Shown here piece by piece: positions 44,556 to 61,904 of a DNA stretch of 62,110 nt. A program made the position numbers and the translations under genes. The stretch's first letter is position 1, and each line of letters begins with the position of its first letter. The DNA is from Nitrospira sp. GTDB taxonomy: Bacteria; Nitrospirota; Nitrospiria; Nitrospirales; Nitrospiraceae. The DNA lies in NCBI GenBank assembly GCA_016873495.1, contig VGXC01000020.1, positions 1 to 62,110 on the forward strand. Direction: 5' to 3'. Below the pieces are notes generated by a model that saw only the letters and a list, made by a program, of their open reading frames with translations, did not search any database and was not told where the DNA came from.

Positions 44556-47500
44556 TTAGGCGGATCCCCGGAACCAATAGTTCACTACCTGCTCAAGATG
44601 GATGACGTCAAACGGCTTCAACAGATAAGCCTGGGCTCCCATACTGACTGCTTCCACGGCCCGCTCCTGCGAACCCGATGCAGTGATGACGATCACCGGC
44701 AGCGACTGGTTGTGGTTGCGGATTCGGCGCAGGACGTCCAGCCCGTCGATATCGGGCATGCCGATGTCCAACAGCATGCCGTCGAAGGAGCCGCTGCCGA
44801 TCATTTCCAGCGCCGTGCTCCCGTCGGCGGAGGCTTGGATGGAGTACCCATATGATCCGAGGCGGTCCAGTAAGAGCTGCCTAATGTCGGGGTCGTCATC
44901 CACGACGAGAATGCGTTTGCTGCCGCTCCTTGTTGCGATCTGGCGTGAGTGTGGGAGAAGAGGCACGGTGAAGTGAAACTCCGTTCCTTTCCCCGGCTCG
45001 CTCCGGGCGGAGATCGTACCTCCATGAAGATTCACCAGCGTTTTGGCGATGGACAGCCCCAGCCCCAGCCCCATCTGGCCTCCCCTCCGACCCTGGCTGA
45101 TCCGGAAGAAGGGATCGAAGATCTTGTCGAGGACTTCCGGAGAAATCCCGGGACCAGAATCGCTTACGGAAATGCCCGCTAAGTTCGCTTCATGTGGCCA
45201 GGCCCTAACCCAGATCAATCCATGGTCGGGCGTATATTTGATGGCGTTATGAATGAGATTCATCAGAATCTGTATGAGCCGGTCGACGTCGGCCCAGACC
45301 AATAACGGGGTTTCCGGCTCGTAGACCTCCAGGCGTTGCTGTTTGGCCGCGGCGAGGGGGCGCAGTTGCTCCATGACTTCACCGATGCACTTCTTTAGTT
45401 CGACCTCGACCGGCAGCAACTCAATCTTTCCGGCTTGGATTCGTGACTGGTCCAATAAGTCCGTGATCATTCGGATCAGACGATCGGCGTTGATACCGAT
45501 ACGGCTGAGGTAATACTGTTGCTTCTCGACGAGCGGGCCGGCCAATCCGCTCATGAAGTTGTCCACAAACCCTTTGATGGAAGTAAGCGGCGTCCGAAGT
45601 TCGTGCGAAACGTGTGAAAGAAAAAGGGATCGGAGTTGATCGGCCTTCTGCAGTTCGGCCGTTCGCTCGAGGACTTTGGTCTCCAGTCCGATGTTCAATT
45701 CCTCGATCTGTCGATACGCTTGGGCATTGTCCAACGCGATGGCCACCTGGCTCGCCACGGTGACCATCAAGTCGAGGTCGTCCTGCGTCAAAGAATTCGC
45801 CTGCGAACGATCCACGGTCAGCGAACCGAGGACTTGGTCTTGGGCTTTTAACGGGACCGAAATAATCGACTTGGCTTGGGTCAGCCGCGCTAGTTCCTGA
45901 TTCAAGGGATGGATCTGATCCCACACCTCACGGAGGTCGCCGATCAGGATAGGGCGTCCCTCCAGGAGCACCGTGCCCTCCGGCCGGTTAGGAGTCGTGA
46001 TAGGGACCTCCCTCGAGCGAACGAGGGCGGCAATGTCCTCCGAGACTCCGAGGATCCGCGCGTCGTATGAGACCTTTCGAGACCGGTCGAAAAACGCGAT
46101 CATGGCTCGATCGTAACGGAGATCATGAATGAGGGTTTCCAGAACGTTTTGTAGCAACGTCTCGCGATCCAGCGTGGCGCTAAAGAGCAGCCCGGCTCGG
46201 TGGAGGGTGGTCAATTGGTTGACCTTCCGCCGCAACTCGACCGCCGTTTGTTCCTGCTCCAAATAGGCTTCGCGAAGTTCCTCGTGCCTGGCGTCGACGG
46301 TTTGGAGTTGTTCCTGAATCAGCTCTTCCCGGGCGTTCATGCGATGTTGCAGCATCCGCAGGCGATACCCCAACCAGCCTGCGAGTGCGATGGGCAGGGC
46401 AAAAACCAGCACATCAAGAAGATTCGGTGCAGGGTTATGGTACAAATAGAAAAGCCCTGCGCCGAAGGACAACAGCAATGCGCTCTGCCACAGTAGACTG
46501 ATCCGCTCCCGAGGTTCCCACGTCAACTCCCACTCACACCGGTCGTCCCCGGTGGCAACACATTTCCGATCCCTGATAGTCGCTCTCTTCAGGCGATGGA
46601 TCTTTTCCGGCACTGCTCGTAGGCCGCCCTTCGCCGATTGGCAAATCAGTGCCGCGCAAGCTTTCCGAAAGGGGCCGAATTGCCGATAGACCGAATCCGG
46701 ATAGGTCATGGTGAGAATCGCAGATCGATCCGTCACCCCGCCGACCCCGAGAACGAGCGAAGAGAATTTTTCGCCGAAGTGCGGGAACTGCCGAAAGATC
46801 TGAGCCACGGAGAAGGGGCGGCCCAACGTCTGAATGACCGAAGAAATGAACTTCTCCTCTCCGACGTGAGCGGAAAATAGCGGATCACCGGACAGCTGTT
46901 TGCAGAACTCCCCCAGGAAGCAGACGAATTCGTAGGAATAGCTGTTCCATACGTTCTTGAGAAACTTTGGGGTCACGTGGTAAACGGGGTCGGCAATGCG
47001 GTCGTTCAGGAGCCGGCACAGCTCATGTGACGCCTGCTCGCCCGCCTCTGGCCCGTTACGGCGACTCATGACCTCTTCAAGATAATCGACGTATGCACGA
47101 ATCTTGATGCCGGTGGCGTCGTTGACTTTCGTGCCGTCTGGATTCACGCCGAATGGGCGGAATTCCATCTCTCCCTTTTCCAAAATCGTATGGTCTTGGG
47201 AAAGTAATTGGGATTGTAACAACGCTCGTCCCTCCGGCTGAGGGGTTGGCCGGGCGTCTTGGGGCGTGTCGTCAAGAGGTGCGATGCCAAAGCTCTGGCG
47301 GTGCTGCCCTCCCTCCTGTGTGGCCGATTCGTCAGAAATGATTGGAGCGGGCTTTCTCATGAGGCGTTCCCAGGTGTTGCGCACAAGCCCCCGACGGGAT
47401 TGCGGTGGCCATGCGATCTCCCATTCGCACCATGCGTCTCCGTTCACAATGCAGGCGCGATCCTTGATGACTGCGGGCGGCAGATGGTGAATGATCTCAG

Positions 47501-49904
47501 GAATACACGAGAGCCCGCCTTTGGCGGACTTGCAGGCCAGTTCGGCACAGCGTTTTCGGTAAGGGCCGAATTCCCGATAGGCCTGCTCGGTGAGTGTGAG
47601 CCGCATAATCGCTAGGCCCTCGGTGACCTCGTCTACGCAGAGTTCGACAACTTTCCTCGATGCGCACTGTTGGGCAAAATGCGAGTACATCTTGTAGATT
47701 TCGGCAACGGAGAAAGGCTGGCCGAGGACCTGGAAAATAGGGGAAATCTTTTTTCTCCTCCCCGCATTCAAGACAAATTCAGGATCGCCGGAGAGCCGTT
47801 CGCAAAATTCTCGGAGATAACAGACAAACTCGTACGAATAACTATTCCATATCCTTTTTAAGAATTCCGGGGTTACATGATAGACCGGGTCGGGGATGCG
47901 CTCGTTGAGAAGCCGACAGAGTTCCCGCGTGGCCTGCGTGCCGGCGTGCGGACTTGCGGTACGCGCCGAGCAATCCTCCAGATAATCCACACTCGCTCGG
48001 ACGATCATTCCGGTGATATCGGAGATCTTTTCGCCTCGACCATCCACTCCGAAGGGGCGAAATTGCATGACTCCTCTTTCTAATATCGTATGGTCTTTCG
48101 AAAGCAATTCGCTGCGCGGTAAGTCCGGCGTCGCCCGCGGAGGCGCCGGGGGAAATCTTCGAGGCGTCTCGATAGGCGGTTGGACAAAGCTATCTCGGTA
48201 GAGGCCTTCTTCACGTGCGGTTGGCTTATCCAGACCGTTCGGTGCGGGACCGTCGGTGAGGCGTTTCCACGCATTGCGCCCAAACCTCCGACGGGATTGT
48301 GGAAGCCAGGTAATCTCCCATTCGCACCATTCGGCACCATCCACGATGCACGTGCGATCCACGATCGTGGCGGGCGGCAGGTGGTGGACCCGTTCCGGAA
48401 CCGCTGCAAAGCTGCCATGATGGGATTGACAGATCATCTGAGCACAGCGGTTCCGGTAGGCTCCAAACTGGCGATATGAACGCTCGGTAAACTTCATGCG
48501 AAGGATGGCCATGTGGTCGGTGACCAGGCAGACCTCCCGCTCGATTGAGCCTTTCGTGTACTTTTGGCCGAAGTGAGGAAACATCTTGTAGATTTGAGAA
48601 ACCGGAAAGGGACGGCCGAGGATTTGGATGACGGGGGCGATTTTGTCCTTGCCCGAGTTGAAGGCAAACCGGGGATCGCCGGATAGCTGTTCGCAGAATT
48701 CATACACATAACAGACGAATTCATATGAATAGCTGTTCCATGTATTTTTTATGAACTTGGGCGTGACATGATAGATCGAGTCGCGGATTCGCTCGTTCAG
48801 GAGCCGGCAAAGCTCCTCGACTGCGCGTGATCCGGCATCTGAGCCGTACGACCGGGACACATACCATTCCAGGTAACTCACCATGGCCCGTACGCTGACT
48901 CCGCTGACATCGCAGATATTGTCCTCGCGTTCATCGGCTCCAAACGGGCGGAACTCCATGAAGGGCCGTTCCAGGATCCTGTGGTCCTTGGAGAGGAGTT
49001 CAATCTCGGGCAGGTGGGGTGCTGTCGAATGTGGCATTGCAACGGTCTGGTCTGGCGTGGAATGGGGCTCCACTGTCGCGGTCAACGAAGTGGGCACGAC
49101 AGTTGCCTCGGCCTCGTCACGGGGCGAAATGGATTTCGCTGATCCGCCAGCGATGAAGTGCCATGCCGTGCCAATGAGGCCGCGGCGGTGCTGCGGAGTC
49201 CAGGTAAATTCCCATTCGCACCATTTGTCGCCCTTCACCATGCATGTCAGGTCTTTGACCGTCGCAGGGGGCAGGCGATGGACCCATACAGGGATCGATG
49301 CCAGTCCAGCCTTGCAGTTCTGACAGACGAGCGCGGCGCAGCGTTTTTGAAATGGTTCGATCTGTCGAAGCGCGTGTTCCGAAAACGTGATGCTGAGGAT
49401 TGCCGACCGATCGGTTACGGTGGCAACTCGAAATTCCGTGCATCCCTTGACGTATTTCAGACCGAAATGCGGCCACATCTTGTAGATCTCGTGAATCGGG
49501 AATGGTCTCGCGAGCAGTGTAATCGCCGGAGAGAGGGCTCGTTCTTGCGCGACATGAGCGACAAACTTCGGATCGCCGGACAATTGGATGCAGAATTCTC
49601 GAAGGTAGACAAAGAACTCATAGGAATAGCTGCGCCAGAAATGTCTCAAGCCTTTCGGGGTGACCTGGCAGGCGGGATCGCGAACGCGCTCATTAAGCAA
49701 GTGACATAGATGGCGTACTGCTTTCTCGCCAGCCTCGCTGCCGGCATTTTGTGACACATAGTCTTCAAGATATTGCACATAGGAGCTGACAAATGCGCCG
49801 CTGACATCTTGGATCCGTTCTCCCCGTTCATCCGCACCGAACGGTGGGAACTCCATGAAGGGTCGTTCCAGGATCGTGTGGTCTTGGGAGAGGAGTTCAA
49901 ACAT
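44556..49904 (-). CDS. Hybrid histidine kinase with four tandem V4R-like sensor modules
   Basis: This 1782-aa kinase carries four sensor modules at about 4-237, 303-535, 600-833 and 900-1130, spaced 297-300 residues apart. Each has DHxILE, RPFG, SYSYEF, SGDP, G/A-RPF and a four-Cys signature C-X4-C-X26-C-X7-C with Asp three before the third Cys (first module C189, C194, D218, C221, C229). Then come two membrane helices (1137-1156, 1161-1180), a coiled coil, GAF (1235-1395), HisKA with H1434, an ATPase (N1553) and a receiver (D1713, K1763). There is no signal peptide, so modules and kinase are both cytosolic with a membrane hairpin between. V4R/XylR-like assignment is inference. It heads an operon with a FadL channel. 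Confidence 0.85.
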   Translation of the reverse strand: MFELLSQDHTILERPFMEFPPFGADERGERIQDVSGAFVSSYVQYLEDYVSQNAGSEAGEKAVRHLCHLLNERVRDPACQVTPKGLRHFWRSYSYEFFVYLREFCIQLSGDPKFVAHVAQERALSPAITLLARPFPIHEIYKMWPHFGLKYVKGCTEFRVATVTDRSAILSITFSEHALRQIEPFQKRCAALVCQNCKAGLASIPVWVHRLPPATVKDLTCMVKGDKWCEWEFTWTPQHRRGLIGTAWHFIAGGSAKSISPRDEAEATVVPTSLTATVEPHSTPDQTVAMPHSTAPHLPEIELLSKDHRILERPFMEFRPFGADEREDNICDVSGVSVRAMVSYLEWYVSRSYGSDAGSRAVEELCRLLNERIRDSIYHVTPKFIKNTWNSYSYEFVCYVYEFCEQLSGDPRFAFNSGKDKIAPVIQILGRPFPVSQIYKMFPHFGQKYTKGSIEREVCLVTDHMAILRMKFTERSYRQFGAYRNRCAQMICQSHHGSFAAVPERVHHLPPATIVDRTCIVDGAEWCEWEITWLPQSRRRFGRNAWKRLTDGPAPNGLDKPTAREEGLYRDSFVQPPIETPRRFPPAPPRATPDLPRSELLSKDHTILERGVMQFRPFGVDGRGEKISDITGMIVRASVDYLEDCSARTASPHAGTQATRELCRLLNERIPDPVYHVTPEFLKRIWNSYSYEFVCYLREFCERLSGDPEFVLNAGRRKKISPIFQVLGQPFSVAEIYKMYSHFAQQCASRKVVELCVDEVTEGLAIMRLTLTEQAYREFGPYRKRCAELACKSAKGGLSCIPEIIHHLPPAVIKDRACIVNGDAWCEWEIAWPPQSRRGLVRNTWERLMRKPAPIISDESATQEGGQHRQSFGIAPLDDTPQDARPTPQPEGRALLQSQLLSQDHTILEKGEMEFRPFGVNPDGTKVNDATGIKIRAYVDYLEEVMSRRNGPEAGEQASHELCRLLNDRIADPVYHVTPKFLKNVWNSYSYEFVCFLGEFCKQLSGDPLFSAHVGEEKFISSVIQTLGRPFSVAQIFRQFPHFGEKFSSLVLGVGGVTDRSAILTMTYPDSVYRQFGPFRKACAALICQSAKGGLRAVPEKIHRLKRATIRDRKCVATGDDRCEWELTWEPRERISLLWQSALLLSFGAGLFYLYHNPAPNLLDVLVFALPIALAGWLGYRLRMLQHRMNAREELIQEQLQTVDARHEELREAYLEQEQTAVELRRKVNQLTTLHRAGLLFSATLDRETLLQNVLETLIHDLRYDRAMIAFFDRSRKVSYDARILGVSEDIAALVRSREVPITTPNRPEGTVLLEGRPILIGDLREVWDQIHPLNQELARLTQAKSIISVPLKAQDQVLGSLTVDRSQANSLTQDDLDLMVTVASQVAIALDNAQAYRQIEELNIGLETKVLERTAELQKADQLRSLFLSHVSHELRTPLTSIKGFVDNFMSGLAGPLVEKQQYYLSRIGINADRLIRMITDLLDQSRIQAGKIELLPVEVELKKCIGEVMEQLRPLAAAKQQRLEVYEPETPLLVWADVDRLIQILMNLIHNAIKYTPDHGLIWVRAWPHEANLAGISVSDSGPGISPEVLDKIFDPFFRISQGRRGGQMGLGLGLSIAKTLVNLHGGTISARSEPGKGTEFHFTVPLLPHSRQIATRSGSKRILVVDDDPDIRQLLLDRLGSYGYSIQASADGSTALEMIGSGSFDGMLLDIGMPDIDGLDVLRRIRNHNQSLPVIVITASGSQERAVEAVSMGAQAYLLKPFDVIHLEQVVNYWFRGSA

Positions 49905-50106
49905 GCTCACAGACCCTAACTCGTCCGAGGGTCGGGAAGGGACACTCAGGGGGTTCGAAACGGCCCGGAGCGGCGTTGTATCTCCCTGGTAGCTTGGCGG
50001 GCATATACATGTTGCCCGTGCCGCGTCGTATCTCGGCTGCGGCCTCCCGCTGTGTGTTTGAGTAGGAATACGACACCTCTGGTGCCAGGGGTACAGCAAG
50101 TTCCAT
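49897..50106 (-). CDS. Possible small upstream ORF coupled to the kinase
   Basis: A 69-codon frame starts at ATG 50106, six bases after AAGGA, and its stop (49899-49897) overlaps the kinase ATG by eight bases (ATGTTTGA). The peptide (MELAVPLAPEVSYSYSNTQR onward) resembles nothing known. The kinase itself has only a weak ribosome site, so this frame may serve to couple translation. It could equally be chance. Confidence 0.3.
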   Translation of the reverse strand: MELAVPLAPEVSYSYSNTQREAAAEIRRGTGNMYMPAKLPGRYNAAPGRFEPPECPFPTLGRVRVCEHV

Positions 50107-50319: not shown

Positions 50320-52101
50320 CTAGGATTCTTTAAGATCGCAGATCAGGTTCTCCTCATCGCACGTCTTCAAGTATTCGATGATCGCCGAACGCTCGTCTTC
50401 CGTCAGCTCGCATCCGAGAATCCCTTCCCTGCCGTGGCGGGCAAGCTCATCGCATTCGATCTTATCGAATCGGTGGCCGTGCCGGTCGTCGTTTCTGAAT
50501 TCGTGTCCGGCGTTGGAATTGCCGGGCAACGTCGCGTCGAATGGGATTTCACCGGGCAGGCAGTCGCTCTTGAACCCGACATTGGCCGGGTCGAACTCCA
50601 GCGCACCCAGGCAGAACCGCATGGGCCTTTGCTCCACGGGCGACAGGAGGTGCCGCAGGGTGGGAACCGATCCGTTGTGGAGATACGGAGCGGTAGCCCA
50701 GATGCCGGCGTGGGGTCTGGCGAGGTACGCCAGCGGAGCCCGCCAATAGTTCGGGGCCCGGTCTGGCCAGTTGTTGATCTCCATGATCTTTGAGGTGAGC
50801 CATTGGGTGGCCTCGACCGCGGGGATCACCGGCCTCCCAAAGACCCCCATGAGGAGCCCCGTCCGGACCGTCCGTGCCTGGAAGTTCACGGCGTGGGTGG
50901 GGTCGGTGCCAATGGTCGTTATTTTGATGACGCTGTGGTGGTCCATATCGTATCGCTGGCCGAATGGATTGGCGTCCTTCAGGGGAGCCGGCCGATGACA
51001 GCCGGCGCATAATTTATTGTAGAGGCCCTTCCCCTGTGCTGCCTTGTTTGGATCGACGGCTGGAAATACCTTGTCAGGCCATCGGGGCGCGTTTAACAAC
51101 CGAACTTTCTGTTCCAGTCCGTTGAGTTTCGAGGCGTCCACCTTGGTTTCTACTGGGCTGGGCAGGATCTTTTCGGGAAACTTCACCGTGGCGCGGAGGC
51201 CGATCGATTGCGCGATGTTCCGTCCCATGGGGTTTTGGATTGACGCGTTCCACTGGACCCAATCGTATCGCCAGGCTCCCCAGAGTTGGGGGTAGTCCAC
51301 CGGCGCATTCAATTGCCGAACATTATGAGGGTCGAGTCGCACGAATCCGGTGTTGAGCGCCCGGCCGAAGGCATCCATCCGACCGGCTCCCCAAGGACTG
51401 GGATAGAGGTTGATGCCCCTCTGTTCCGCGACGCGGTCCGGCAGCTTCATCATGGTCACGTATTTAAACAGACATTGACGCAAGGCTTTGGGCGTCAGCG
51501 GTGGCACCTTCGGCAGCACGGCCTTGGCAAACCGTACGAATTTGTCCGTATCCACGAAGGTTTCATTGAGCGTGGTCATGACCGCCAGCAGGAAGGCCAG
51601 ATTGTTGTGCATCGAAGGGCCCCCGTCGATAATGACGGTGTGCCGTTGCTTCTTCGCGTCGGTGTAGTTGAGCTGTCCCGTATGGCAAGCGGCGCAATTG
51701 AAACCGAGGTGCGCCAGGGAAACCGGCGGACCAGGTTCGTCCGTCCTGTCGCACAAGAACTCGGCGTCGGGGTGAGCGTCGGTCCGCGTGAATCCGACCG
51801 GAAGGCCGTCTGGGTTGTGCTTCGGATCCGGACGGTCGGGGATGAAGCCGAATCGAGCGAGGTAGTCGTTGTCCGTAAAGGGTTTCGTCCCGTTCGGCTG
51901 CTCTAGCGCCAGGAACCAGTCGTAGGGAAGCAGTTCGCTGTTCTGCGTGTCGTGGTAAAACGCTTGGCGCGTGGCAGGGTCTCACCCTTGGCTTGGGGCC
52001 GATCCTGATGGGGCGGGGTTGGAACTCATGGCCGCGTAGTTCGGCGTGGAAGCGAAGAGTGGCGTGCAACAGACTATGGCGACGATCCATCGTGCCTTCA
52101 T
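50320..52101 (-). pseudogene. RoxA-like dihaem cytochrome c, interrupted by an in-frame TGA
   Basis: The frame starts at ATG 52101 after GGGAGGTG with a signal peptide (WIVAIVCCTPLFASTPNYAA) and runs to 50320, 593 codons, except for a TGA at codon 40 (51984-51982). After it the sequence is conserved-looking at once (ATRQAFYHDTQNSELLPYDW). Haem motifs are CAACH (codons 136-140) and CAGCH (365-369); ATAPYLHNGSVPTLRHLL matches RoxA/dihaem peroxidase-type enzymes. The next usable start after the TGA is TTG at 51756, which would lose the export signal. RoxA-like enzymes are periplasmic oxygenases. It is 39 bp downstream of a hydrolase gene. Confidence 0.8.
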
Positions 52102-53606: not shown

Positions 53607-55994
53607 TCAGCGGGAGCCGACATCGAAGGGGAGCGAAAATGTAAAGCAGCTGCCTTGTCCGGGAACGCTGGCGACCCAGATCGTGCCACCATGCAGTTCC
53701 ACGAGGCTCTTGGTAATGGCCAACCCAAGCCCCGCTCCGCGTGCCTCGACGGGCACTGATTCTCCCCGGTAGAACTTCCCAAATACCTTGTCGAGTTCCT
53801 GGACTGGGATGCCGCAGCCGCTGTCGGCGACGCTGATGGCGGCTCCGTGGCCGTCCCATAGCGCCGAGCCTACCACGATGTTCCCCTGCGGCGGGGTGAA
53901 CTTGATCGCGTTGTGCAGCAGGTTTGTCAGAATCTGGAGCAGTTTGTCTCGATCGGCTCGAATCGCCGGTAGGCCGGTCGTGTGCTGCTGCCTGATCGTA
54001 ATGGATTTGCCCCGCGCGAGCAGGTGAACGCTTTCGACGACCTCGTTGACGACGTCGGGAACCGCCAGATCGGTCAGGCGGAGTTCGGCCAAGCCGGCTT
54101 CGATTCGAGAGAGATCCAGCAGCTCGTTGGTCATCCGGGTCAGCCGGTCGGCGTTGAATTTGACCCGTTGCAGGTAATAGGTCTGCCGTTCGGTGAGTTG
54201 GCCGCTGACGCCGTCCAATAGGTTCTCCACATAGCCTTTGATAGACGTCATCGGCGTGCGCAACTCATGCGACACGATCGAGACGAACGCCGACTTCAGA
54301 TGGTCCAACTCCCGCAACTTCTGGTTTGCCGTCTCCAATTCCTGGGTGCGTTCGCGCACCTTGGTTTCCAGCCCGACGTTCAAGGCTTCGATCTGGGCAT
54401 AGGCCTCTGCATTGTCGAGGGCGATGGCGACCTGATTTGCGACCGTCACCATCAGGTCCAGGTCGGCCTGCCCAAGGCCGTTGACCTCCGCTCGGTCCAC
54501 CGTCAGCGCCCCTATGACCTGGCCTTTGACCTTCACCGGGATGGAGATAAAGGATTTCGCTCCCGTCATGGTCGCAAGTTGCTGATTGAGCGGATGGAGG
54601 GCGCCCCAGGCTTCCTGGAGATTGCGGACCAGGATCGGGCGGCCCTCCAGCAGGACGGCGCCTTCCAGGAGGTGTGGATCTGTGACGGGGATGGTCAGGT
54701 TCTCCGCAAACGCGGCGCAAGCTTGAGAGACACCCATGATGCGGATCTTGTGAGCCACCCGGCGGTCGTGATCGTACAACGAGATCATCGCGCGATCGTA
54801 GTGTAAGTCTTCATTGAGGGCGCGGAGCACGGAGTCGAACAGCTGGTCCCGGTCTAAAGTGGAGCTGAAGAGGAGCCCGGCCCGATGGAGAATGGTCAGT
54901 TGCCTGACCTTGCGGCGCAATTCGACGGTGGTCTGTTCCTGCTCCAGATAGGCCTCGCGAAGCTCCTCGTGTCGGGCCTCGACGGAACGCAGTTGCTCGT
55001 CCACCAACTGCTCCCGCATGCGACTGCGGGTATGGCGTGTCCACCAGCGAACAGTCAGCACCGACAGGACCGCAGGTCCGGACGCCAACAGCAAGCTTGG
55101 GACAGCGGTGAGCGTCGGATATCGGTATCGTAGGAAGAACCAAGAGGCTAGGCTTACCAGGAAGCCGATCGTAAGCCACATAGATTGCCGGGACGGCTCG
55201 GGGTCCCAGGCAATATCCCACTCACACCACTCGTCCCCTTCGGCCATGCAGGATCGGTCTGCGATGACAGCCGGCCGATTATGATGAATACGCTCGGGAA
55301 CCGCCGTCAATGCCCCCTTCGAAGCGGCGCAGACCAGGGCTGCGCAGGCTTTCCGATAGGGCCCGAACTGTCCGTCCACCGCGTCGGTGAATTTCATTCT
55401 GAGCAACGCGCGGCGATCGGTCACCGATTTCGCCTCCATGTACATGGAGCCCTTCACGAACTTTTCCCCGAAATGCGGAAACATCCGGTAGATCTGCGAG
55501 ACGGAGAAGGGGCGGCCCAGGGTCTGGATGATCGGCGAGAGAAATTTGGCCTGGGCCATCTTGAACGCGAATTGCGGATCGCCGGCAATGATCTGGCAGA
55601 ACTCGCCGAGGAAACAACGGAACTCATAGGAATAGCTGTGCCACATGTTCTTGAGCAAGGCCGGGGTGACGTGGTAGGCGGGGTCGCGAATGCGGTCATT
55701 CAACTTGGCGCAGAGGTCTTCGATCGCCTGCGCCCCTGCCGCAGGCCCCGCTTTCAGGCTGATGGACTCTTCGAGATACTCGATGTTGGCGCGGATCGTC
55801 ATGCCGCTCACGTCCCGAATCTTCTCTCCGGCAGCGTCCGCGCCGAAGGGACGGTACTCCATCATTCCTTTCTCAAGGATCGAATGAGTTTTGGGAAGCA
55901 GTCGCAGCGCCGGCTCAGCGGTGCGGGGTTCCGAGAATGAAGGCTTCTCGATCAGTTTGTGGAGGGATGTGCCGGATGCCGATGAGGGTACCAT
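53607..55994 (-). CDS. GAF histidine kinase with one V4R-like sensor module
   Basis: This 795-aa kinase has a single copy of the module (about 31-267) with C217, C222, D246, C249 and C257, the same spacing as in the four-module paralogue. Two membrane helices (273-290, 295-316), a coiled coil, GAF (370-535), HisKA with H576 (SIVSHELRTPMTS) and an ATPase (HNAIKFTPP) follow. There is no receiver. From the helices onward it matches the paralogue domain for domain, including REAYLEQEQT, so one derives from the other or from a shared ancestor. A promoter at 56004-56031 suggests a leaderless or very short leader. Confidence 0.9.
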   Translation of the reverse strand: MVPSSASGTSLHKLIEKPSFSEPRTAEPALRLLPKTHSILEKGMMEYRPFGADAAGEKIRDVSGMTIRANIEYLEESISLKAGPAAGAQAIEDLCAKLNDRIRDPAYHVTPALLKNMWHSYSYEFRCFLGEFCQIIAGDPQFAFKMAQAKFLSPIIQTLGRPFSVSQIYRMFPHFGEKFVKGSMYMEAKSVTDRRALLRMKFTDAVDGQFGPYRKACAALVCAASKGALTAVPERIHHNRPAVIADRSCMAEGDEWCEWDIAWDPEPSRQSMWLTIGFLVSLASWFFLRYRYPTLTAVPSLLLASGPAVLSVLTVRWWTRHTRSRMREQLVDEQLRSVEARHEELREAYLEQEQTTVELRRKVRQLTILHRAGLLFSSTLDRDQLFDSVLRALNEDLHYDRAMISLYDHDRRVAHKIRIMGVSQACAAFAENLTIPVTDPHLLEGAVLLEGRPILVRNLQEAWGALHPLNQQLATMTGAKSFISIPVKVKGQVIGALTVDRAEVNGLGQADLDLMVTVANQVAIALDNAEAYAQIEALNVGLETKVRERTQELETANQKLRELDHLKSAFVSIVSHELRTPMTSIKGYVENLLDGVSGQLTERQTYYLQRVKFNADRLTRMTNELLDLSRIEAGLAELRLTDLAVPDVVNEVVESVHLLARGKSITIRQQHTTGLPAIRADRDKLLQILTNLLHNAIKFTPPQGNIVVGSALWDGHGAAISVADSGCGIPVQELDKVFGKFYRGESVPVEARGAGLGLAITKSLVELHGGTIWVASVPGQGSCFTFSLPFDVGSR

Positions 55995-56119: not shown

Positions 56120-56647
56120 CTACTGGTGCAAGTGCTTCAGCGCGGCGGCGCAGAGGATAATGAGGAGGCCAAGCCACAAAGCGACGCGCTGGAAGGGGAC
56201 CGGCTCCAACATCTGCTCTTCCCGTTCCTCGGCCGATTCATCGCCGGTCGGCTCGGTCTTGAAGATGATGGTGTAGAGGAAGAGCGTCAGAATGCCCAGA
56301 ACCAGGAACAACTTGATGAAGAACACGGTCAGATACTTGGCATGGTGGGGAATGCCGGACCCGGTTTGGGAGACCAGTAATTGATTCACATAGTGCAGGT
56401 TGATCCCGCCCGTAAAGAGAATCACGACCAGCAGGACGCCCACCACGCGCTTGTATTGCCGGTAAAACGTGTCGGCGATTGGCTTGATGTATTCTTTGGG
56501 CACCGCGGTCTTCAGCCCTGGCGTGACCGCCATGACCAGGAAGGCCAGGCCGCCGATCCAGATGACGGCCGAGACCAAGTGCAACCAATGGTTGACGATC
56601 GGGATGAGCTGGTTGAGGTCGGTCAGGAGTGATTGCAGCGCGTCCAT
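56120..56647 (-). CDS. CopD-like integral membrane protein
   Basis: This 175-aa protein has four membrane helices (about 15-42 LIPIVNHWLHLVSAVIWIGG, 68-85, 105-128, 152-170). The His-containing first helix and VNQLLVSQTG region resemble the CopD/DUF2214-like group that can bind haem or copper. The ATG overlaps the radical SAM stop by one base (TAATG), so it is the third gene of a coupled operon with the Usp-PCP_red and SPASM genes. A redox or tetrapyrrole-binding role is inference. Confidence 0.8.
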   Translation of the reverse strand: MDALQSLLTDLNQLIPIVNHWLHLVSAVIWIGGLAFLVMAVTPGLKTAVPKEYIKPIADTFYRQYKRVVGVLLVVILFTGGINLHYVNQLLVSQTGSGIPHHAKYLTVFFIKLFLVLGILTLFLYTIIFKTEPTGDESAEEREEQMLEPVPFQRVALWLGLLIILCAAALKHLHQ

Positions 56648-58023
56648 TAGAATTTAAACACCGGGGCGTCGTTGCCGAACCGTTTCTTGCGGAGCTCTTC
56701 CATCAATTCGACGGTGATAACGGCCAGGCCTTGTTCGCGTGCGTGCCGCTCGACGCCCTTCTTGACCATGGCGCGAAGGAAATAGGGTATGCGGTTGAGC
56801 CGGGTCTGCGCTGCTTCCTCCCAGACCGCGGTGCTTTCCTCCGGTGTGTTGAAGGCCACCTGCACCTTTGCGCCGCCCTTCGGGGTATAGAGGCACCACT
56901 GATCCTCGTCCAGCCAATCCCCATGGTCCACGTAGGGACGGGCCCGGCAGCCTCCGCAAATCTCGCTGTACTCACAGTCCCCACATTTGCCTTTGAGATG
57001 CGGATAACGGAAAGAGTCGAAGATGTCGGACCGTTCCCAGAGGTCCACGAAGCTCTTTTCGCGGACGTTGCCCGCCGAGAGCGGCATGTAGGGACAGGGG
57101 GTCACCTCGCCATTGGGGGTCACCCGGGCGTAATTGGTGCCGGCCAGGCAGCCCCCGCCCATATAGCCCTGGGCCTTGGTAATCGGGGAGTTGGGGTCCT
57201 TCTCGTAGGCCAGGCGTTTGAAGTGGGGTGCACAGCGGGCGCGAACCAGCATGTCTTTGTACTTATCCTGGCAATCGACCAGGTAGCCGAGCACTTCTTC
57301 GTACTGCGCTGGCGTGATGTCGGTCAGCTCCTCGCCGCGTCCGGTGCAGACCATGAAGAAGACGTTCAGCACTTTGGCGCCGAGGGTATGGGCCCACTCG
57401 ATCACGTCCGGCAGCTCCTGGTAGTTCATCGGCTGGGCGCTGAAGTGCACCTGGAACTGGAGCCCGTTGCGCTTGCACGCCTCGATGCCGGCCACGGCTC
57501 CTTCCCAAGCCCCTTCGAGCCCGCGGAAACGGTTGTGCTTCTTGGCGTCCAGCGAGTCGATGCTGATCCCGACGCCCATGACGCCGATCTCCACCAGCTC
57601 TTTGGCCATGCGATCGTTGATCAGCATCCCATTGGTGCCGAACACGACCATGAAGCCGAGCCCCACTGCGTGGCGCGCGATGTCCAGAATGTCCGGGCGT
57701 GTCAGCGGTTCCCCGCCGGTAATGACCAGCAGGCAGCCCCGGTTCACTTCGGCGATCTGATCGATCAGGCGGACGCATTCTTCGGTGGTGAGCTCGTCCG
57801 ATCCGCCGCCGGCTTTGGTGGTGGCGTCCAGGTAGCAATGGTCGCACTTGAGGTTGCAGCGCTTCGTGAGGTTGAGGGCGATCAGGAAGGGCTTGAAGTC
57901 GTCCACCGTCCGGCCGTCGCCGGGCATGCCCGGCGACGCCACAAACTGCTTGATCTGTTGTTCAAGCGAATCGAGCTTCCCCGCGAGGGCGGGAATATTC
58001 AATATCGGGAGGGCCTTACCCAT
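56647..58023 (-). CDS. SPASM radical SAM protein with C-terminal PCP_red domain
   Basis: The 458-aa protein has the radical SAM cluster motif RCNLKCDHC (C56, C60, C63), ITGGEPL, and a SPASM region with auxiliary Cys clusters (GGCLAGTNYARV, PCPYMPL, KGKCGDCEYSEICGGC). It resembles NirJ/AhbD-type haem-modifying enzymes more than peptide maturases, by eye. Its last 55 residues (TRLNRIPYFLRAMVKKGVER) form a PCP_red domain, named from the light-independent protochlorophyllide reductase B subunit. The ATG overlaps the upstream gene by eight bases. Predicted role: tetrapyrrole or protein side-chain radical chemistry. Confidence 0.87.
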   Translation of the reverse strand: MGKALPILNIPALAGKLDSLEQQIKQFVASPGMPGDGRTVDDFKPFLIALNLTKRCNLKCDHCYLDATTKAGGGSDELTTEECVRLIDQIAEVNRGCLLVITGGEPLTRPDILDIARHAVGLGFMVVFGTNGMLINDRMAKELVEIGVMGVGISIDSLDAKKHNRFRGLEGAWEGAVAGIEACKRNGLQFQVHFSAQPMNYQELPDVIEWAHTLGAKVLNVFFMVCTGRGEELTDITPAQYEEVLGYLVDCQDKYKDMLVRARCAPHFKRLAYEKDPNSPITKAQGYMGGGCLAGTNYARVTPNGEVTPCPYMPLSAGNVREKSFVDLWERSDIFDSFRYPHLKGKCGDCEYSEICGGCRARPYVDHGDWLDEDQWCLYTPKGGAKVQVAFNTPEESTAVWEEAAQTRLNRIPYFLRAMVKKGVERHAREQGLAVITVELMEELRKKRFGNDAPVFKF

Positions 58024-60127
58024 TCTGGGAGGGTCCCGGCTGGGAGCCGACGCCCAGGCGCTCGAGGATATCCTTCAGATTGCCCGTCTTCATCGCTTCT
58101 TCCATTGTGCCCTTGGCTTGCTCGATGCCCTCGTTGGCGACCTCGAGGGTGATCGTGGTCGCGCCGACCTTTTCGGCATGCTTCAGGATCAGCGCCTTGG
58201 TGCAGTCGCGCATGAAACCTGGGGGCACGCGGTCGAGGCGCGCTTGCGCGTCCGGGGTCCAGGTGAAAGGGGAGGGAGCAGACATTGAACTACCTCCGTT
58301 GCCGCCGGTTGCATGCCCGTTGCCATGGCCGTTACCCTGGTCGGCCTGGCGCGTGGCCTCCGTCTCCGGGGCCGTGCCGGTGCCTTTGTTCGCAAAGATA
58401 GGGGTATAGTCTTCGGCCGCCGCTTCCTGGATCATCGGCGCCGCATACTCGAGCGTAATCGTGGTTATGCCCAGCTTTCGGGCCGTCTTTTCGATCTTGG
58501 CCTTGGCGCGCCGCCGCTGGAACCCGGCCGGGACGCTCCGGATGGCCTCCTTGGCGTCCTTGGTCCACTGCATCGGCACGTCGTCGTAAGCCAGTTCCGT
58601 TTCCAGCTGCCCTTCCGCCTTGGCGGCCGCTTCGAAGATGCTCTTGTCTACCTGCTTGAAGCGCGAGCCCTCCGCCATGCAGACGGGGCACTTCACCGGC
58701 GTGTCGCCCTTGCCGATATAGCCGCAGCCGTCGCAAACGAAGTAAGTCTGGCTCATCCGGTCCAGGTAGGCCTGGGTGCCGGCGCTCACCGTCGGCTTCT
58801 CCTGCACGATCTCGGTCATCATGCCGCTGAGCGTACCGCCCATCAGGTCCTTGGCCACGGAATCGTCGGCCTGCATCTTGTCCCGGTCGATGCCGGCAGC
58901 GTCCAGGCTCCCGCCGAGCGCCCGCATGGCGTCCATCGCCCCTTTCGGCAGGATGTGTCCGACCGCCGCGTCCACCACCGTGTTGCTGATGATCGTGTGT
59001 CCCTTCTCGATCGCGTAGCGATGGATGGCCGTCTTGGCCACGCCGCGTGCAAACACCGGAATCTTTTCCATCCGACGCAAGGCCTCTTCGGTCCAGGCGA
59101 TGGTGTACTCGGCCTGGGTGTCGATGGGCGGAGTGTACTTGCGATTGGAGATCAGCACGTTGCAGGGGGCGGCGCGCAAGAGGTTCTCCGTGTTGCTGCC
59201 GATGTCCATGTCCTCGTCGCTGTGCACGCCGATTCGGCCGACGATCAGGAGCCAGGGGACATCCTTGCGGACGTACTGAATGACCTTCTCGAAGGCCTTC
59301 CCGTCCAGCAGAGTGGTCTTGATGTCCGTGTTTTCGGCTTGGGCGATCTCGCGGGAAATGTCCAGGTGCGACTGGTAAATCTTGGCCAGGCCGCTGTCGA
59401 TGATTTCTTCGTGCAATTTTTCCTGTTCCTTGAACCGGAAGACCTTGCCGGCCTCCTCGTTGAGGACGCCAGAAATGCTGTGGAAGGCCGCATAGTGGAA
59501 ATAGGGGTCGAAGGCCGCGATGGCTTCCACCGGCCGGTTTAAGGCTTTCCCCAAGGCCAGGGCGGTCATCAGCCCGCCGAACGAGTAGGCGCTGCCGTCC
59601 ACCGCGACGACGATCTTGCCGCTGGTCATCGGCTGCGTGTTCTTGATGATCAGCATGTCGGAGTTCCGGACGCGGCGCACCACGCGCTCGGTGTTGCTGC
59701 CGATCACGCTGTCCTTTACCGCGCCCACGCCGAGGGCACCCATGATCACGAGGTCGTAGGCGTTCTGGTTGATGTCTTCGGCCAGCACCTTCCAGTTCCG
59801 GCCTTCCAGGGAGCGGCGTTCCAGGGGCAGGTTGGCCTCGGTGCAGCGCTTATCCACATAGTCGAGGTAGGAGTCGGTAATGATCTGGAGCCCACGGGTG
59901 ATCAGCGAGTCGTGGATCTGGCGTTGCCGATCCAGCTCCTTTTCGTCGTGATACTCCTCCGGTAGTCCGGCCTCCATCTGTTTGAAACGCTTATCGTGCA
60001 TCTTTGCCGCATAGACATGGCTCCCGACGATTTTGGCGCCAAACGTTTTGGCCAGGTCGACGCCCACGTCGACGGCAGTATTGGAATAGTCCGAGTTATC
60101 GACCGGGACATAAATCGTCTTATACAT
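58016..60127 (-). CDS. Double universal-stress protein with three PCP_red domains and a rubredoxin-like knuckle
   Basis: This 703-aa soluble protein contains two Usp domains (about 1-163 and 168-328; GSNTERVVRR and GSNTENLLRA are the nucleotide-binding ends), PCP_red 1 (343-390, AWTEEALRRMEKIPVFARG), a rubredoxin-like metal site (C465, C468, C480, C483), PCP_red 2 (518-565, QWTKDAKEAIRSVPAGFQRR) and PCP_red 3 (621-668, TWTPDAQARLDRVPPGFMRD). A Gly/His/Asn-rich linker lies at 595-612. AAGGAGG precedes the ATG by seven bases. Its stop overlaps the SPASM gene. It may shuttle electrons or a tetrapyrrole; not shown. Confidence 0.88.
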   Translation of the reverse strand: MYKTIYVPVDNSDYSNTAVDVGVDLAKTFGAKIVGSHVYAAKMHDKRFKQMEAGLPEEYHDEKELDRQRQIHDSLITRGLQIITDSYLDYVDKRCTEANLPLERRSLEGRNWKVLAEDINQNAYDLVIMGALGVGAVKDSVIGSNTERVVRRVRNSDMLIIKNTQPMTSGKIVVAVDGSAYSFGGLMTALALGKALNRPVEAIAAFDPYFHYAAFHSISGVLNEEAGKVFRFKEQEKLHEEIIDSGLAKIYQSHLDISREIAQAENTDIKTTLLDGKAFEKVIQYVRKDVPWLLIVGRIGVHSDEDMDIGSNTENLLRAAPCNVLISNRKYTPPIDTQAEYTIAWTEEALRRMEKIPVFARGVAKTAIHRYAIEKGHTIISNTVVDAAVGHILPKGAMDAMRALGGSLDAAGIDRDKMQADDSVAKDLMGGTLSGMMTEIVQEKPTVSAGTQAYLDRMSQTYFVCDGCGYIGKGDTPVKCPVCMAEGSRFKQVDKSIFEAAAKAEGQLETELAYDDVPMQWTKDAKEAIRSVPAGFQRRRAKAKIEKTARKLGITTITLEYAAPMIQEAAAEDYTPIFANKGTGTAPETEATRQADQGNGHGNGHATGGNGGSSMSAPSPFTWTPDAQARLDRVPPGFMRDCTKALILKHAEKVGATTITLEVANEGIEQAKGTMEEAMKTGNLKDILERLGVGSQPGPSQNG

Positions 60128-60226
60128 CTACCCGCCTCCTTCAGGCCCCCTGGCAAACGTCGAGATCGAGAAAATCGTTAGGAAATTGAACCGATTCCGA
60201 GATATCACCGGCTAAAATAAGATGGC

Positions 60227-60284: not shown

Positions 60285-61904
60285 TTAGCCCACTCGGCTG
60301 ACGGCCGGTCCCGATGGCGAAGCGGCTGAAGAACCAGCGGTTTTTCGCGATTGGAGAATCTCTTCCAGAGTCAACAAGGCCTGGCGTCCGCTGTTGTGCT
60401 CGATTCCACGGATGAGACTGCCGTCCGCATAGGCCTGAGGCTTGGCGGAGAGGGAGCCGGACCAAGGACGGGGGTCCTGGCTCCCCTGTTTCTTATGCCA
60501 GGCGGCCAGGCAGGCCTTGGCGATCAGCTTGTTCAGCGGGGCCGGGTTGTAGAGGAGCTTTCTGATGCTGGTGGGGGTGAGCATCAGCGGATTGTAGCCG
60601 GCCGAGAGGTACCCCTCCTCCAGCAGCCGATGTTCCAGATCGGTGTTCGGTTGGATGCCCAGGAAAAACATCAAGGGAAACACCCGCTCCTCGCCCAGGA
60701 TCGAGGCGACGGTTTTGTACGATGCGACGCTCTGCAAGAGGGTCTCCTCGGTTTCCTTGGGGGAGTTCAGGGAATAGTTCAGGATGACCTTTCCCTGAAA
60801 GCCGGCTTCGGCCAGGTACCGGCAGCCGTCGTAAAGCCGCTCCAGCTTGAACCCCATGTGGAGGTTGTTGAGAACTTCTTGCGAGCCGGAGGTAATGGCC
60901 ACCTCCAGGTCTCCGACCCCAGAGCGGACCATGAGCTTGGCCAGGTCCGCCGTAATCAGCGAGGTCCGGATGTAGCCGGACCATTGGATATCCAGTTTTT
61001 CACGGAGGATACGCTCCAGAATCTCCGTACATTGGGGATAGGCTTCCTTGCCGGTGATGAACTGGGCGTCCGTGAACCAGAACTTGCGCGCGCCCCATTG
61101 GTGGTAATGTTGGGCGATGTCCTTGACGACCATCTCCGGCGGGCGGTAGCGGACCCGTTTCCCTTCGATATAGGGGTAGAGGCAGAAAGCACAGTCGTAG
61201 GGGCAGCCACGCTTGCTTTGGACGCCGATGGATTCGTCGATGTAGTCCCGGTACTGGGGGAAGATGCCGGTGAGGTAGGGTAAATCCACGGTCAAAGCGT
61301 CCAAGAGAGCCGGCGATCCCTGTTCGCCTTTGGACACCTTCCCTCCTTCTTTGACGATGTACCGTTCATCCGAGAGAGAGCGGCCTTCCACCATCTTGAG
61401 AATGGCGTCTTCGCCTTCGCCGAGGATGCCGACCGTCCCCTCCGGCAGCCTCTCGATCAACTGGTCCGCGAAGGCGGTGAAGGCCCCGCCTCCGATCATG
61501 ATCTGCGCGCGGGGAAACTCTTTTCGGATTATCCAGGGATAGGACAAGTTGGCACGTATGTCGTGGTAATACCGATAGAGCTGCTTGACGCCCTGGACGG
61601 AAGCCATGGCCCGCTTGAACGGGTTGCTCGCGAAATAGAAGTTGAACGCGTGCTCCAGCGACGCATCCCCTTCGTGGGGAGAGAAAATTTGGATGTCCCG
61701 CCAGGAGAAGCAGACCAAATCCGGCGCAAAGGCTGTGGCTGTGTCCCGCAGGACGTTCGGCCGATCGGCTTGCGGGTAGACCGACAGGTCTAGGATCTGC
61801 TGCCGGACATCGGGTCGCCGCCGATGGATAAAATCCGCCAAATAGGTGATCCCGATCGGGTAAACCTTCTTGCAGGGGAGAAAGACGTAGAGGACCGAGT
61901 TCAT
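60285..61904 (-). CDS. B12-binding-type radical SAM protein
   Basis: This 539-aa protein has the CxxxCxxC cluster site in KRGCPYDCAFCLYPY (about 230), preceded by a Rossmann-like N-terminal domain (about 1-180, KVYPIGITYLADFI, AQIMIGGGAFTAF) in the position of the cobalamin-binding domain. The His of a true B12 DxHxxG motif is not obvious, so cobalamin use is uncertain. The family includes BchE, MiaB-unrelated methylases and hopanoid enzymes. It lies upstream of the PCP_red operon in the same direction, separated by 157 bp. Substrate unknown. Confidence 0.85.
   Translation of the reverse strand: MNSVLYVFLPCKKVYPIGITYLADFIHRRRPDVRQQILDLSVYPQADRPNVLRDTATAFAPDLVCFSWRDIQIFSPHEGDASLEHAFNFYFASNPFKRAMASVQGVKQLYRYYHDIRANLSYPWIIRKEFPRAQIMIGGGAFTAFADQLIERLPEGTVGILGEGEDAILKMVEGRSLSDERYIVKEGGKVSKGEQGSPALLDALTVDLPYLTGIFPQYRDYIDESIGVQSKRGCPYDCAFCLYPYIEGKRVRYRPPEMVVKDIAQHYHQWGARKFWFTDAQFITGKEAYPQCTEILERILREKLDIQWSGYIRTSLITADLAKLMVRSGVGDLEVAITSGSQEVLNNLHMGFKLERLYDGCRYLAEAGFQGKVILNYSLNSPKETEETLLQSVASYKTVASILGEERVFPLMFFLGIQPNTDLEHRLLEEGYLSAGYNPLMLTPTSIRKLLYNPAPLNKLIAKACLAAWHKKQGSQDPRPWSGSLSAKPQAYADGSLIRGIEHNSGRQALLTLEEILQSRKTAGSSAASPSGPAVSRVG

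Follow-up and report, generated by a model that had tools for sequence, protein, structure and literature searches.

Three coupled genes of Nitrospira joining Usp, PCP_red and radical SAM/SPASM domains as a possible core of a maturation system for a bd-like respiratory complex

A stretch of 62,110 nucleotides from Nitrospira sp. (contig VGXC01000020.1 of assembly GCA_016873495.1), here called the window, carries three overlapping genes on its reverse strand (Table 1) that encode, in order, a protein with two Usp and three PCP_red domains (P0001), an AhbD/NirJ2-like radical SAM/SPASM enzyme ending in a fourth PCP_red domain (P0002) and a small membrane protein (P0003). PCP_red is known as the tail of an enzyme of chlorophyll synthesis, subunit B of DPOR (BchB/ChlB). 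The Pfam scan bears out the initial annotation of the window in finding four PCP_red domains in two coupled genes together with Usp and SPASM radical SAM parts, and the overlap of eight bases that it had described between genes 1 and 2 is indeed seen (AATGGGTAAG); genes 2 and 3 share a single nucleotide at a TAATG junction. The module formed by these genes shows a strong link to a bd-like respiratory complex, drawn from co-occurrence and operon structure, and is here followed across bacterial genomes. Genomes, contigs, loci and families are cited by our own numbers (G, C, L and f, respectively).

P0001 scores 106.6 bits against Usp over two stretches (Pfam curated cut-off 24) and 116.8 bits against PCP_red (PF08369; cut-off 32.5) over three. 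It possesses the two Usp domains with a G-2x-G-9x-G(S/T) motif that mark the tandem type, and Foldseek matches its AlphaFold2 model (mean pLDDT 78) to the tandem Usp structures Rv2623 and TTHA0350. With these proteins and UspE it has in common two Usp folds, the ATP-binding motif and a matching structure; unlike them, it presents further invariant His, Arg and Glu residues (H211, H239 and H302 are invariant in the region of the second Usp domain), C-terminal PCP_red repeats and a recurrent radical SAM partner. The PCP_red copies follow the Usp domains, as had been proposed, but not all three lie beyond the CxxC knuckle, which the first copy precedes. The knuckle, taken initially as a rubredoxin-like part, holds all four cysteines (CDGCG..CPVC) despite a score below the RUBY_RBDX cut-off, and it is missing from the majority of the distant homologues, including most of the proteobacterial ones, for which reason an essential redox role for it was rejected. 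Both P0001 and P0002 resemble DPOR subunit B in carrying PCP_red, a domain with solved examples (2KRU, 2L09), but they match the DPOR subunit B equivalog at 74 bits (cut-off 509) within the PCP_red regions only, short of the equivalog score. The Pfam scan finds no DPOR-type (nitrogenase-like) oxidoreductase domain in either protein, and PCP_red is joined here to Usp, radical SAM and CxxC proteins instead.

Gene 1 also occurs in altered forms. In G098 it is split between the first PCP_red copy and the knuckle, with the halves about 354 kb apart (G098:C1:897836 and 543765; L070 and L071) through either rearrangement or misassembly, and the C-terminal half still adjoins the radical SAM gene. The homologues of G044, G054, G070, G072, G082, G093 and G121 have one in-frame stop within the match, and in G054 and G082 the open frame of gene 1 spans about 1225 codons, a length sufficient to continue into the radical SAM gene.

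The Pfam scan of P0002 returns Radical_SAM at 87.8 bits and SPASM at 41.7 bits, both above their cut-offs (29.5 and 21.5), and PCP_red at 57.9 bits over residues 401-445. The SPASM cysteines, invariant in 40 sequences, are spaced C264-27-C292-17-C310-36-C347-2-C350-5-C356-2-C359-17-C377, which equals the full eight-Cys motif of AhbD, CX20-33CX17CX36-37CX2CX5CX2CX17-35C (PMC10452713). Since all eight are kept at AhbD spacing, three Fe-S clusters are predicted in the enzyme. The best NCBIfam match of P0002 is NirJ2 (TIGR04055; 326 bits), followed here by AhbD (TIGR04545; 315.5 bits), and because both scores lie below the cut-offs of 500 bits, with the AhbD cut-off reached by 0 of 41 relatives, the enzyme is filed as a member of neither family; it may still work like AhbD or NirJ2. 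In a tree of the radical SAM core, built with the PCP_red tail left out, the tailed enzymes form a single clade (support 97/96). Its sister branch is the NirJ2 reference, and AhbD-type, TIGR04053 and NirJ proteins are placed separately; the exact position of NirJ2 is uncertain because its one reference is a long branch. P0002 has in common with AhbD, the haem b synthase of the siroheme-dependent pathway, the radical SAM/SPASM architecture, the CX3CX2C motif and the eight cysteines, and it is about 37-41% identical to AhbD-type proteins of Nitrospirota. It differs from AhbD in its separate clade, its PCP_red tail and its Usp partner, and several Nitrospirota possess an AhbD-type gene besides. 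NirJ2, which is assigned putatively to haem d1 biosynthesis, lacks the tail; among haem d1 genes, NirS and siroheme decarboxylase were not recognised beside the loci read, no genome-wide search having been made for them. The AlphaFold2 model of P0002 has a mean pLDDT of 83, and BchB/PCP_red chains are not present in its VIA-align list, which ranks whole chains and so has no bearing on the tail. Three genomes (L076, L077 and L078 of G005, G014 and G016) carry a second, tail-less AhbD/TIGR04053-like radical SAM enzyme close to FGE-type genes, and L076 also has a small CopD-like protein nearby.

A CopD-like membrane protein does follow the pair, as the initial annotation stated, but its score falls below the CopD cut-off. 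Weak matches among its relatives comprise CopD (17/19), DUF4149 (15/19) and UPF0093 (HemJ, PF03653; 7/19, best E 1.2e-4), the last of which is unmatched in P0003 itself in Pfam; such weak matches do not identify the protein as HemJ. P0003 has four transmembrane segments in common with HemJ/PgdH2, CopD and DUF4149 proteins, differs from them in scoring below every curated cut-off, and belongs to a family with invariant H23, P43, T79-G80 and K112. Gene 3 follows the pair in the Nitrospirales families f1-f3, adjoins gene 1 in f4 and is also present with the pair in 11 of 11 Poribacteria loci.

Table 1. Features of the module and of the adjoining upstream gene, in coordinates of the window
Feature	Position	Strand	Evidence
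Gene 1 (P0001, 703 aa): tandem Usp, PCP_red, rubredoxin-like knuckle, PCP_red, PCP_red	58016..60127	-	Pfam scan
Usp domain 1	59645..60127	-	Nucleotide motif G-2x-G-9x-G(S): G130, G133, G143
Usp domain 2	59147..59620	-	Same motif, G-2x-G-9x-G(S): G297, G300, G310
PCP_red copy 1 of gene 1	58964..59095	-	54.3 bits, genome-wide PCP_red search
Rubredoxin-like CxxC..CxxC knuckle	58655..58741	-	24.8 bits, RUBY_RBDX (PF21349), cut-off 26.5
PCP_red copy 2 of gene 1	58448..58567	-	42.7 bits, genome-wide PCP_red search
PCP_red copy 3 of gene 1	58136..58261	-	38.9 bits, genome-wide PCP_red search
Shine-Dalgarno AAGGAGG ahead of gene 1	60135..60141	-	Sequence
Gene 2 (P0002, 458 aa): AhbD/NirJ2-like radical SAM/SPASM enzyme with PCP_red tail	56647..58023	-	Profile scans
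Radical SAM and SPASM core, CX3CX2C and full eight-Cys SPASM motif	56875..57891	-	Invariant in 40-sequence alignment
PCP_red tail of gene 2	56689..56823	-	62.3 bits, genome-wide PCP_red search; similar to solved 2L09, 2KRU
Gene 3 (P0003, 175 aa): CopD/DUF4149/HemJ-superfamily protein with four transmembrane segments	56120..56647	-	CopD (PF05425) 25.5 bits, cut-off 32.1
B12-binding radical SAM gene, slr0320-like, upstream of gene 1	60285..61904	-	442 bits, cut-off 775

Co-conservation elsewhere, on which the initial annotation had made its reading depend, is strong. Of 117 Nitrospirales, 111 carry gene 1, with an identity that is mostly 80-97% but about 70% in f4, genes 1 and 2 are neighbours in the best 30 loci, and the triad is syntenic in f1, f2 and f3; in f4 genes 1 and 3 are adjacent and the radical SAM gene lies elsewhere. 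This f4 enzyme (L074) stands beside an MraZ-like gene and groups with a Poribacteria radical SAM enzyme (L145) at a support of 100/100, which suggests horizontal transfer. Outside the Nitrospirales, other Nitrospirota present tailed enzymes at 41-63% identity, and many genomes of the phylum hold solely a tail-less AhbD-type protein at about 34-42%. Relatives across phyla were taken as the best 80 loci of a genome-collection search using an alignment of tailed enzymes, the search patterns of which were placed in the radical SAM and SPASM core, outside the tail; phyla were assigned by record title, nearly all records being metagenome-assembled genomes. The PCP_red tail is present in 80/80 of these loci, which come from Nitrospirota, Nitrospinota, Brocadia, Scalindua, other Planctomycetota, Poribacteria, Gemmatimonadota, Chloroflexota and Alpha-, Gamma- and Deltaproteobacteria. 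In 47 of the 80 a Usp(-PCP) gene adjoins the tailed enzyme and in 4 others one lies nearby, and the most general unit across families is a tandem-Usp protein beside a radical SAM-PCP protein. The Usp protein of f24, f25 and f29 is devoid of PCP_red; in f24 a protein of about 243 residues, matched by neither Pfam nor NCBIfam, follows the radical SAM-PCP gene (L105 8051-8785, L107, L108 9560-10291, L111). The library searched yielded no relevant paper on PCP_red, 'PCP reductase' or this gene combination, and the gene system is real, widespread and apparently undescribed.

The domain itself extends well beyond the module. The genome of the window holds at least 12 PCP_red copies in five genes, namely genes 1 and 2, a gene for a CxxC protein with two copies and one for a four-copy protein (both on C12), and a second CxxC, two-copy gene on C22. 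The CxxC gene of C12 adjoins that of the Mrp ATPase (Fe-S carrier), the four-copy gene stands alone, and the C22 gene is flanked by genes for DUF420 and a bd-like oxidase. These scattered genes very likely belong to one system, given their arrangement in other families: in f6 a single locus (G214) unites genes 1-3, the four-copy gene, a haem-oxygenase-like enzyme (PF14518), the two-copy gene with Mrp and DUF420, its 33-kb contig (G214:C60) also carrying the bd-like gene and a protoporphyrinogen oxidase (PPO) gene, in f7 the four-copy gene lies between the radical SAM and CopD genes, and in f17 the four copies are fused to the radical SAM enzyme. That PCP_red should be unusual in a non-phototroph, a premise of the initial annotation, is weakened by the presence of the domain in 61/61 Nitrospirales genomes examined; among 14 control genomes it was matched in Synechococcus only. 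A sample of 52 Nitrospirota genomes, 24 with and 28 without the tailed radical SAM enzyme, contains PCP_red in 24/24 of the former and 3/28 of the latter, and these three single copies indicate that the domain has uses outside this system. The residues conserved across 502 copies, W, A, R, P, F, R, E, A, G, I and T, include neither Cys nor His, so that PCP_red was rejected as a metal or haem ligand domain and a redox role for it is unsupported. PCP_red domains may instead be docking or carrier modules, a role that suits their repetition, their mobility among Usp, radical SAM and Mrp-linked proteins and their history of fusion at least as well as tetrapyrrole binding does.

The respiratory link emerges from the same sample. 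A bd-like oxidase is present in 22 of the 24 Nitrospirota genomes with the tailed enzyme and in 0 of the 28 without it (Fisher p about 1e-12, a value that overstates independence because the genomes are related), and each of the contrasts within f25, f26 (one genus) and f29 points the same way. Bd-like genes lie near the module in 14 of the 80 loci, from at least five phyla and including Gemmatimonadota, Chloroflexota, Proteobacteria and Scalindua, in some cases in an operon with an NXR/NarG-like alpha subunit. At L104 (the contig of L113), L106, L109 and L115 the genes in line with the Usp-radical SAM pair encode cytochromes c, a bd-like oxidase (PF01654), a type II DMSO-reductase/NXR-like alpha subunit and a chaperone of the nitrate-reductase-delta type, and the order DUF420, two-copy PCP_red, bd-like recurs in C22 of the window genome, G041 and G004. 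The Nitrospira genomes analysed in one earlier study are reported to have no canonical haem-copper terminal oxidase, the place of which a bd-like protein may take (PMC6606698). In published work on bd-like clusters, one cluster is put forward as the putative terminal oxidase (complex IV) of Nitrospira, and conservation of such a cluster in Nitrospina and anammox bacteria is reported (PMC3578206, PMC6606698, PMC8115632). Two of these papers (PMC3578206, PMC6606698) describe the oxidase clusters to which the respiratory partner of the module corresponds in Nitrospira, Nitrospina and anammox bacteria; a term search of the papers finds no mention of radical SAM in their text and, in part of them, none of protochlorophyllide.

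Several neighbours point to tetrapyrroles. Of the 80 loci, 16 have a PPO gene immediately downstream of the radical SAM gene. One of them is from Nitrospirota (L163) and the other 15 are proteobacterial, L164 and L192 being truncated at the contig end; PPO also follows the fusion of radical SAM and four PCP_red copies in G144 (L099) and just precedes gene 1 in L180. The complete PPO neighbours scanned match TIGR00562 in 16/16 cases, and in G214 and G207 the PPO gene is near the bd-like gene. HemL lies beside the pair in L105, a UbiA/CtaB-like protein (read from the sequence, with no profile scan) follows the radical SAM gene in L180, and DUF420 (CtaM-like) genes are found among the neighbours. 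A methyltransferase distantly like BchU (64-80 bits, cut-off 276) precedes the DUF420, two-copy PCP_red and bd-like genes in the window genome and G041, that is, in two Nitrospirales families (L015 5319-6329; L217 4281-5270). Of the redox or tetrapyrrole-handling complex proposed initially, the redox part fares poorly as far as PCP_red is concerned, whereas tetrapyrrole handling gains support from the NirJ2-sister clade, the eight-Cys SPASM motif, the PPO, HemL, UbiA/CtaB-like and DUF420 neighbours and the co-occurrence with a haem-containing bd-like oxidase. We infer a tetrapyrrole chemistry for the tailed enzyme from clade, neighbours and motif together.

Taken together, genes 1-3 may constitute the core of a conserved multi-gene system for maturation of the bd-like respiratory complex, a reading to which we give a probability of about one half, and this maturation would probably run through modification of a tetrapyrrole (haem). 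With its three predicted [4Fe-4S] clusters, the radical SAM enzyme would perform radical chemistry on a tetrapyrrole, much as AhbD and NirJ act on propionate side chains, making or finishing the haem of the bd-like complex, and PPO would feed this step in those operons that include its gene. Docking or carrying would fall to the Usp domains, with their ATP-binding motif, and to the PCP_red domains, which would thereby unite enzyme, intermediate and Mrp-type Fe-S delivery, and the CopD/HemJ-like protein would hand the product to the membrane or oxidise it there. The narrower proposal of a new haem-tailoring pathway, in which PCP_red/Usp docking proteins carry the tailed enzyme and it produces a modified haem specific to bd-like oxidases, is tentative and somewhat doubtful. 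A number of observations weigh against the maturation reading or its tetrapyrrole step. The NirJ2 and AhbD scores of P0002 stand well below the family cut-offs, PCP_red is without a conserved metal ligand, PPO linkage is missing in most Nitrospirota loci, Nitrospina loci have neither haem nor oxidase neighbour, and G138 and G144, both fragmented assemblies, have the tailed enzyme and no bd-like match. In addition, the solved folds closest to P0002 are the peptide-modifying SPASM enzymes SuiB and SkfB, and PqqE, and the related TIGR04053 family adjoins a gene annotated as CGCGG RiPP in one haloarchaeon.

The last two observations underlie the chief rival explanation, that the tailed enzyme modifies a peptide or protein (for example, a bd-like subunit or a small cytochrome) docked by PCP_red, so that the system would serve oxidase biogenesis by other means than tetrapyrrole chemistry. 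The small size of PCP_red, its repetition, its movement between proteins and its lack of metal ligands would all suit such docking. The SuiB, SkfB, PqqE and tandem-Usp folds do not decide between a peptide and a tetrapyrrole substrate, but NirJ2 is the sister of the core and AhbD and NirJ are close by, the neighbouring genes include PPO, HemL and a CtaB-like one, and the junctions showed no small, conserved precursor peptide, short open reading frames not having been searched systematically. We regard peptide modification as unlikely. A system that served NXR/NarG-like enzymes by maturing their Mo/Fe-S cofactors, and not the oxidase haem, would account for the operons shared with NXR-like alpha and TorD genes (L104 = L113, L106, L109, L115, L184, L188), for the Mrp Fe-S carrier adjoining CxxC-PCP genes and for the presence of MoaA and Isc genes close to the pair in f24. 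The partner examined genome-wide was nevertheless the bd-like oxidase rather than the molybdoenzyme, and this oxidase tracks the radical SAM enzyme; most loci are without an adjacent molybdoenzyme, and the enzyme falls outside the MoaA group. We consider this explanation distinctly improbable.

There is still less to commend a stress or oxygen-response (Usp) module placed near respiratory genes by chance. The ATP motifs are kept in the Usp domains, and Usp proteins that are not named individually are reported to rise at low O2 in N. marina (PMC8115632), but the Usp protein is of a specific tandem type with residues invariant across phyla and stands beside one radical SAM clade, PCP_red is distributed over radical SAM, Usp and Mrp-linked genes, and a general stress role would give no reason to expect 22/24 against 0/28 with a single oxidase. 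Replacement of AhbD by the tailed enzyme as a housekeeping coprohaem decarboxylase, lastly, would fit its AhbD-like sequence and full SPASM motif. A role of AhbD in the coproporphyrin pathway is already described (PMC7242693). Nitrospirales do need a decarboxylase, given their hemE-hemH-hemY order (without hemH in f3) and a HemN that is mostly missing. A ChdC/chlorite-dismutase-type protein (PF06778) is, however, present in 17/17 Nitrospirales genomes tested, mostly at about 200 bits, so that with this gene order the tailed enzyme is not needed for such a step, Thermodesulfovibrionia-type genomes have a separate tail-less AhbD beside HemE, and many haem-making Nitrospirota are without the tailed enzyme. 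The decarboxylase explanation was rejected on the PF06778 protein and the separate AhbD-type gene, and we consider it very improbable. A siroheme-dependent pathway in Nitrospirales was likewise rejected, no match exceeding the AhbD cut-off in 41 genomes; no AhbC-like score was found in 41 Nitrospirales genomes, AhbC itself not having been searched. As a separate observation, ferrochelatase PF00762 was found in none of the six f3 genomes searched (G038, G041, G044, G047, G050, G052), closed ones included, and f3 loci (L200, L204) have hemE and hemY adjacent where f1 has hemE-hemH-hemY.

Elsewhere in the window, the B12-binding radical SAM gene upstream of gene 1 is at most loosely attached to the module, since it is kept as a neighbour in f1 and f2 and not in f3 or f4. 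Two related histidine kinases are encoded at 44556-50099 and 53607-55994, the larger with four tandem N-terminal modules of about 300 residues each, faintly similar to V4R, and the smaller with one. An open reading frame resembling di-haem cytochrome c peroxidase (50320-51756) matches its profile from position 75, and the N-terminal part may be encoded in a different frame.

The module provides a direct handle on the make-up and assembly of the bd-like complex in nitrite-oxidising and anammox organisms, and PCP_red emerges as a mobile module of an apparent respiratory biogenesis system in many non-phototrophic lineages. If the haem-tailoring proposal were true, a modified haem would be the cofactor of the proposed terminal oxidase of Nitrospira, conserved in Nitrospina and anammox bacteria.

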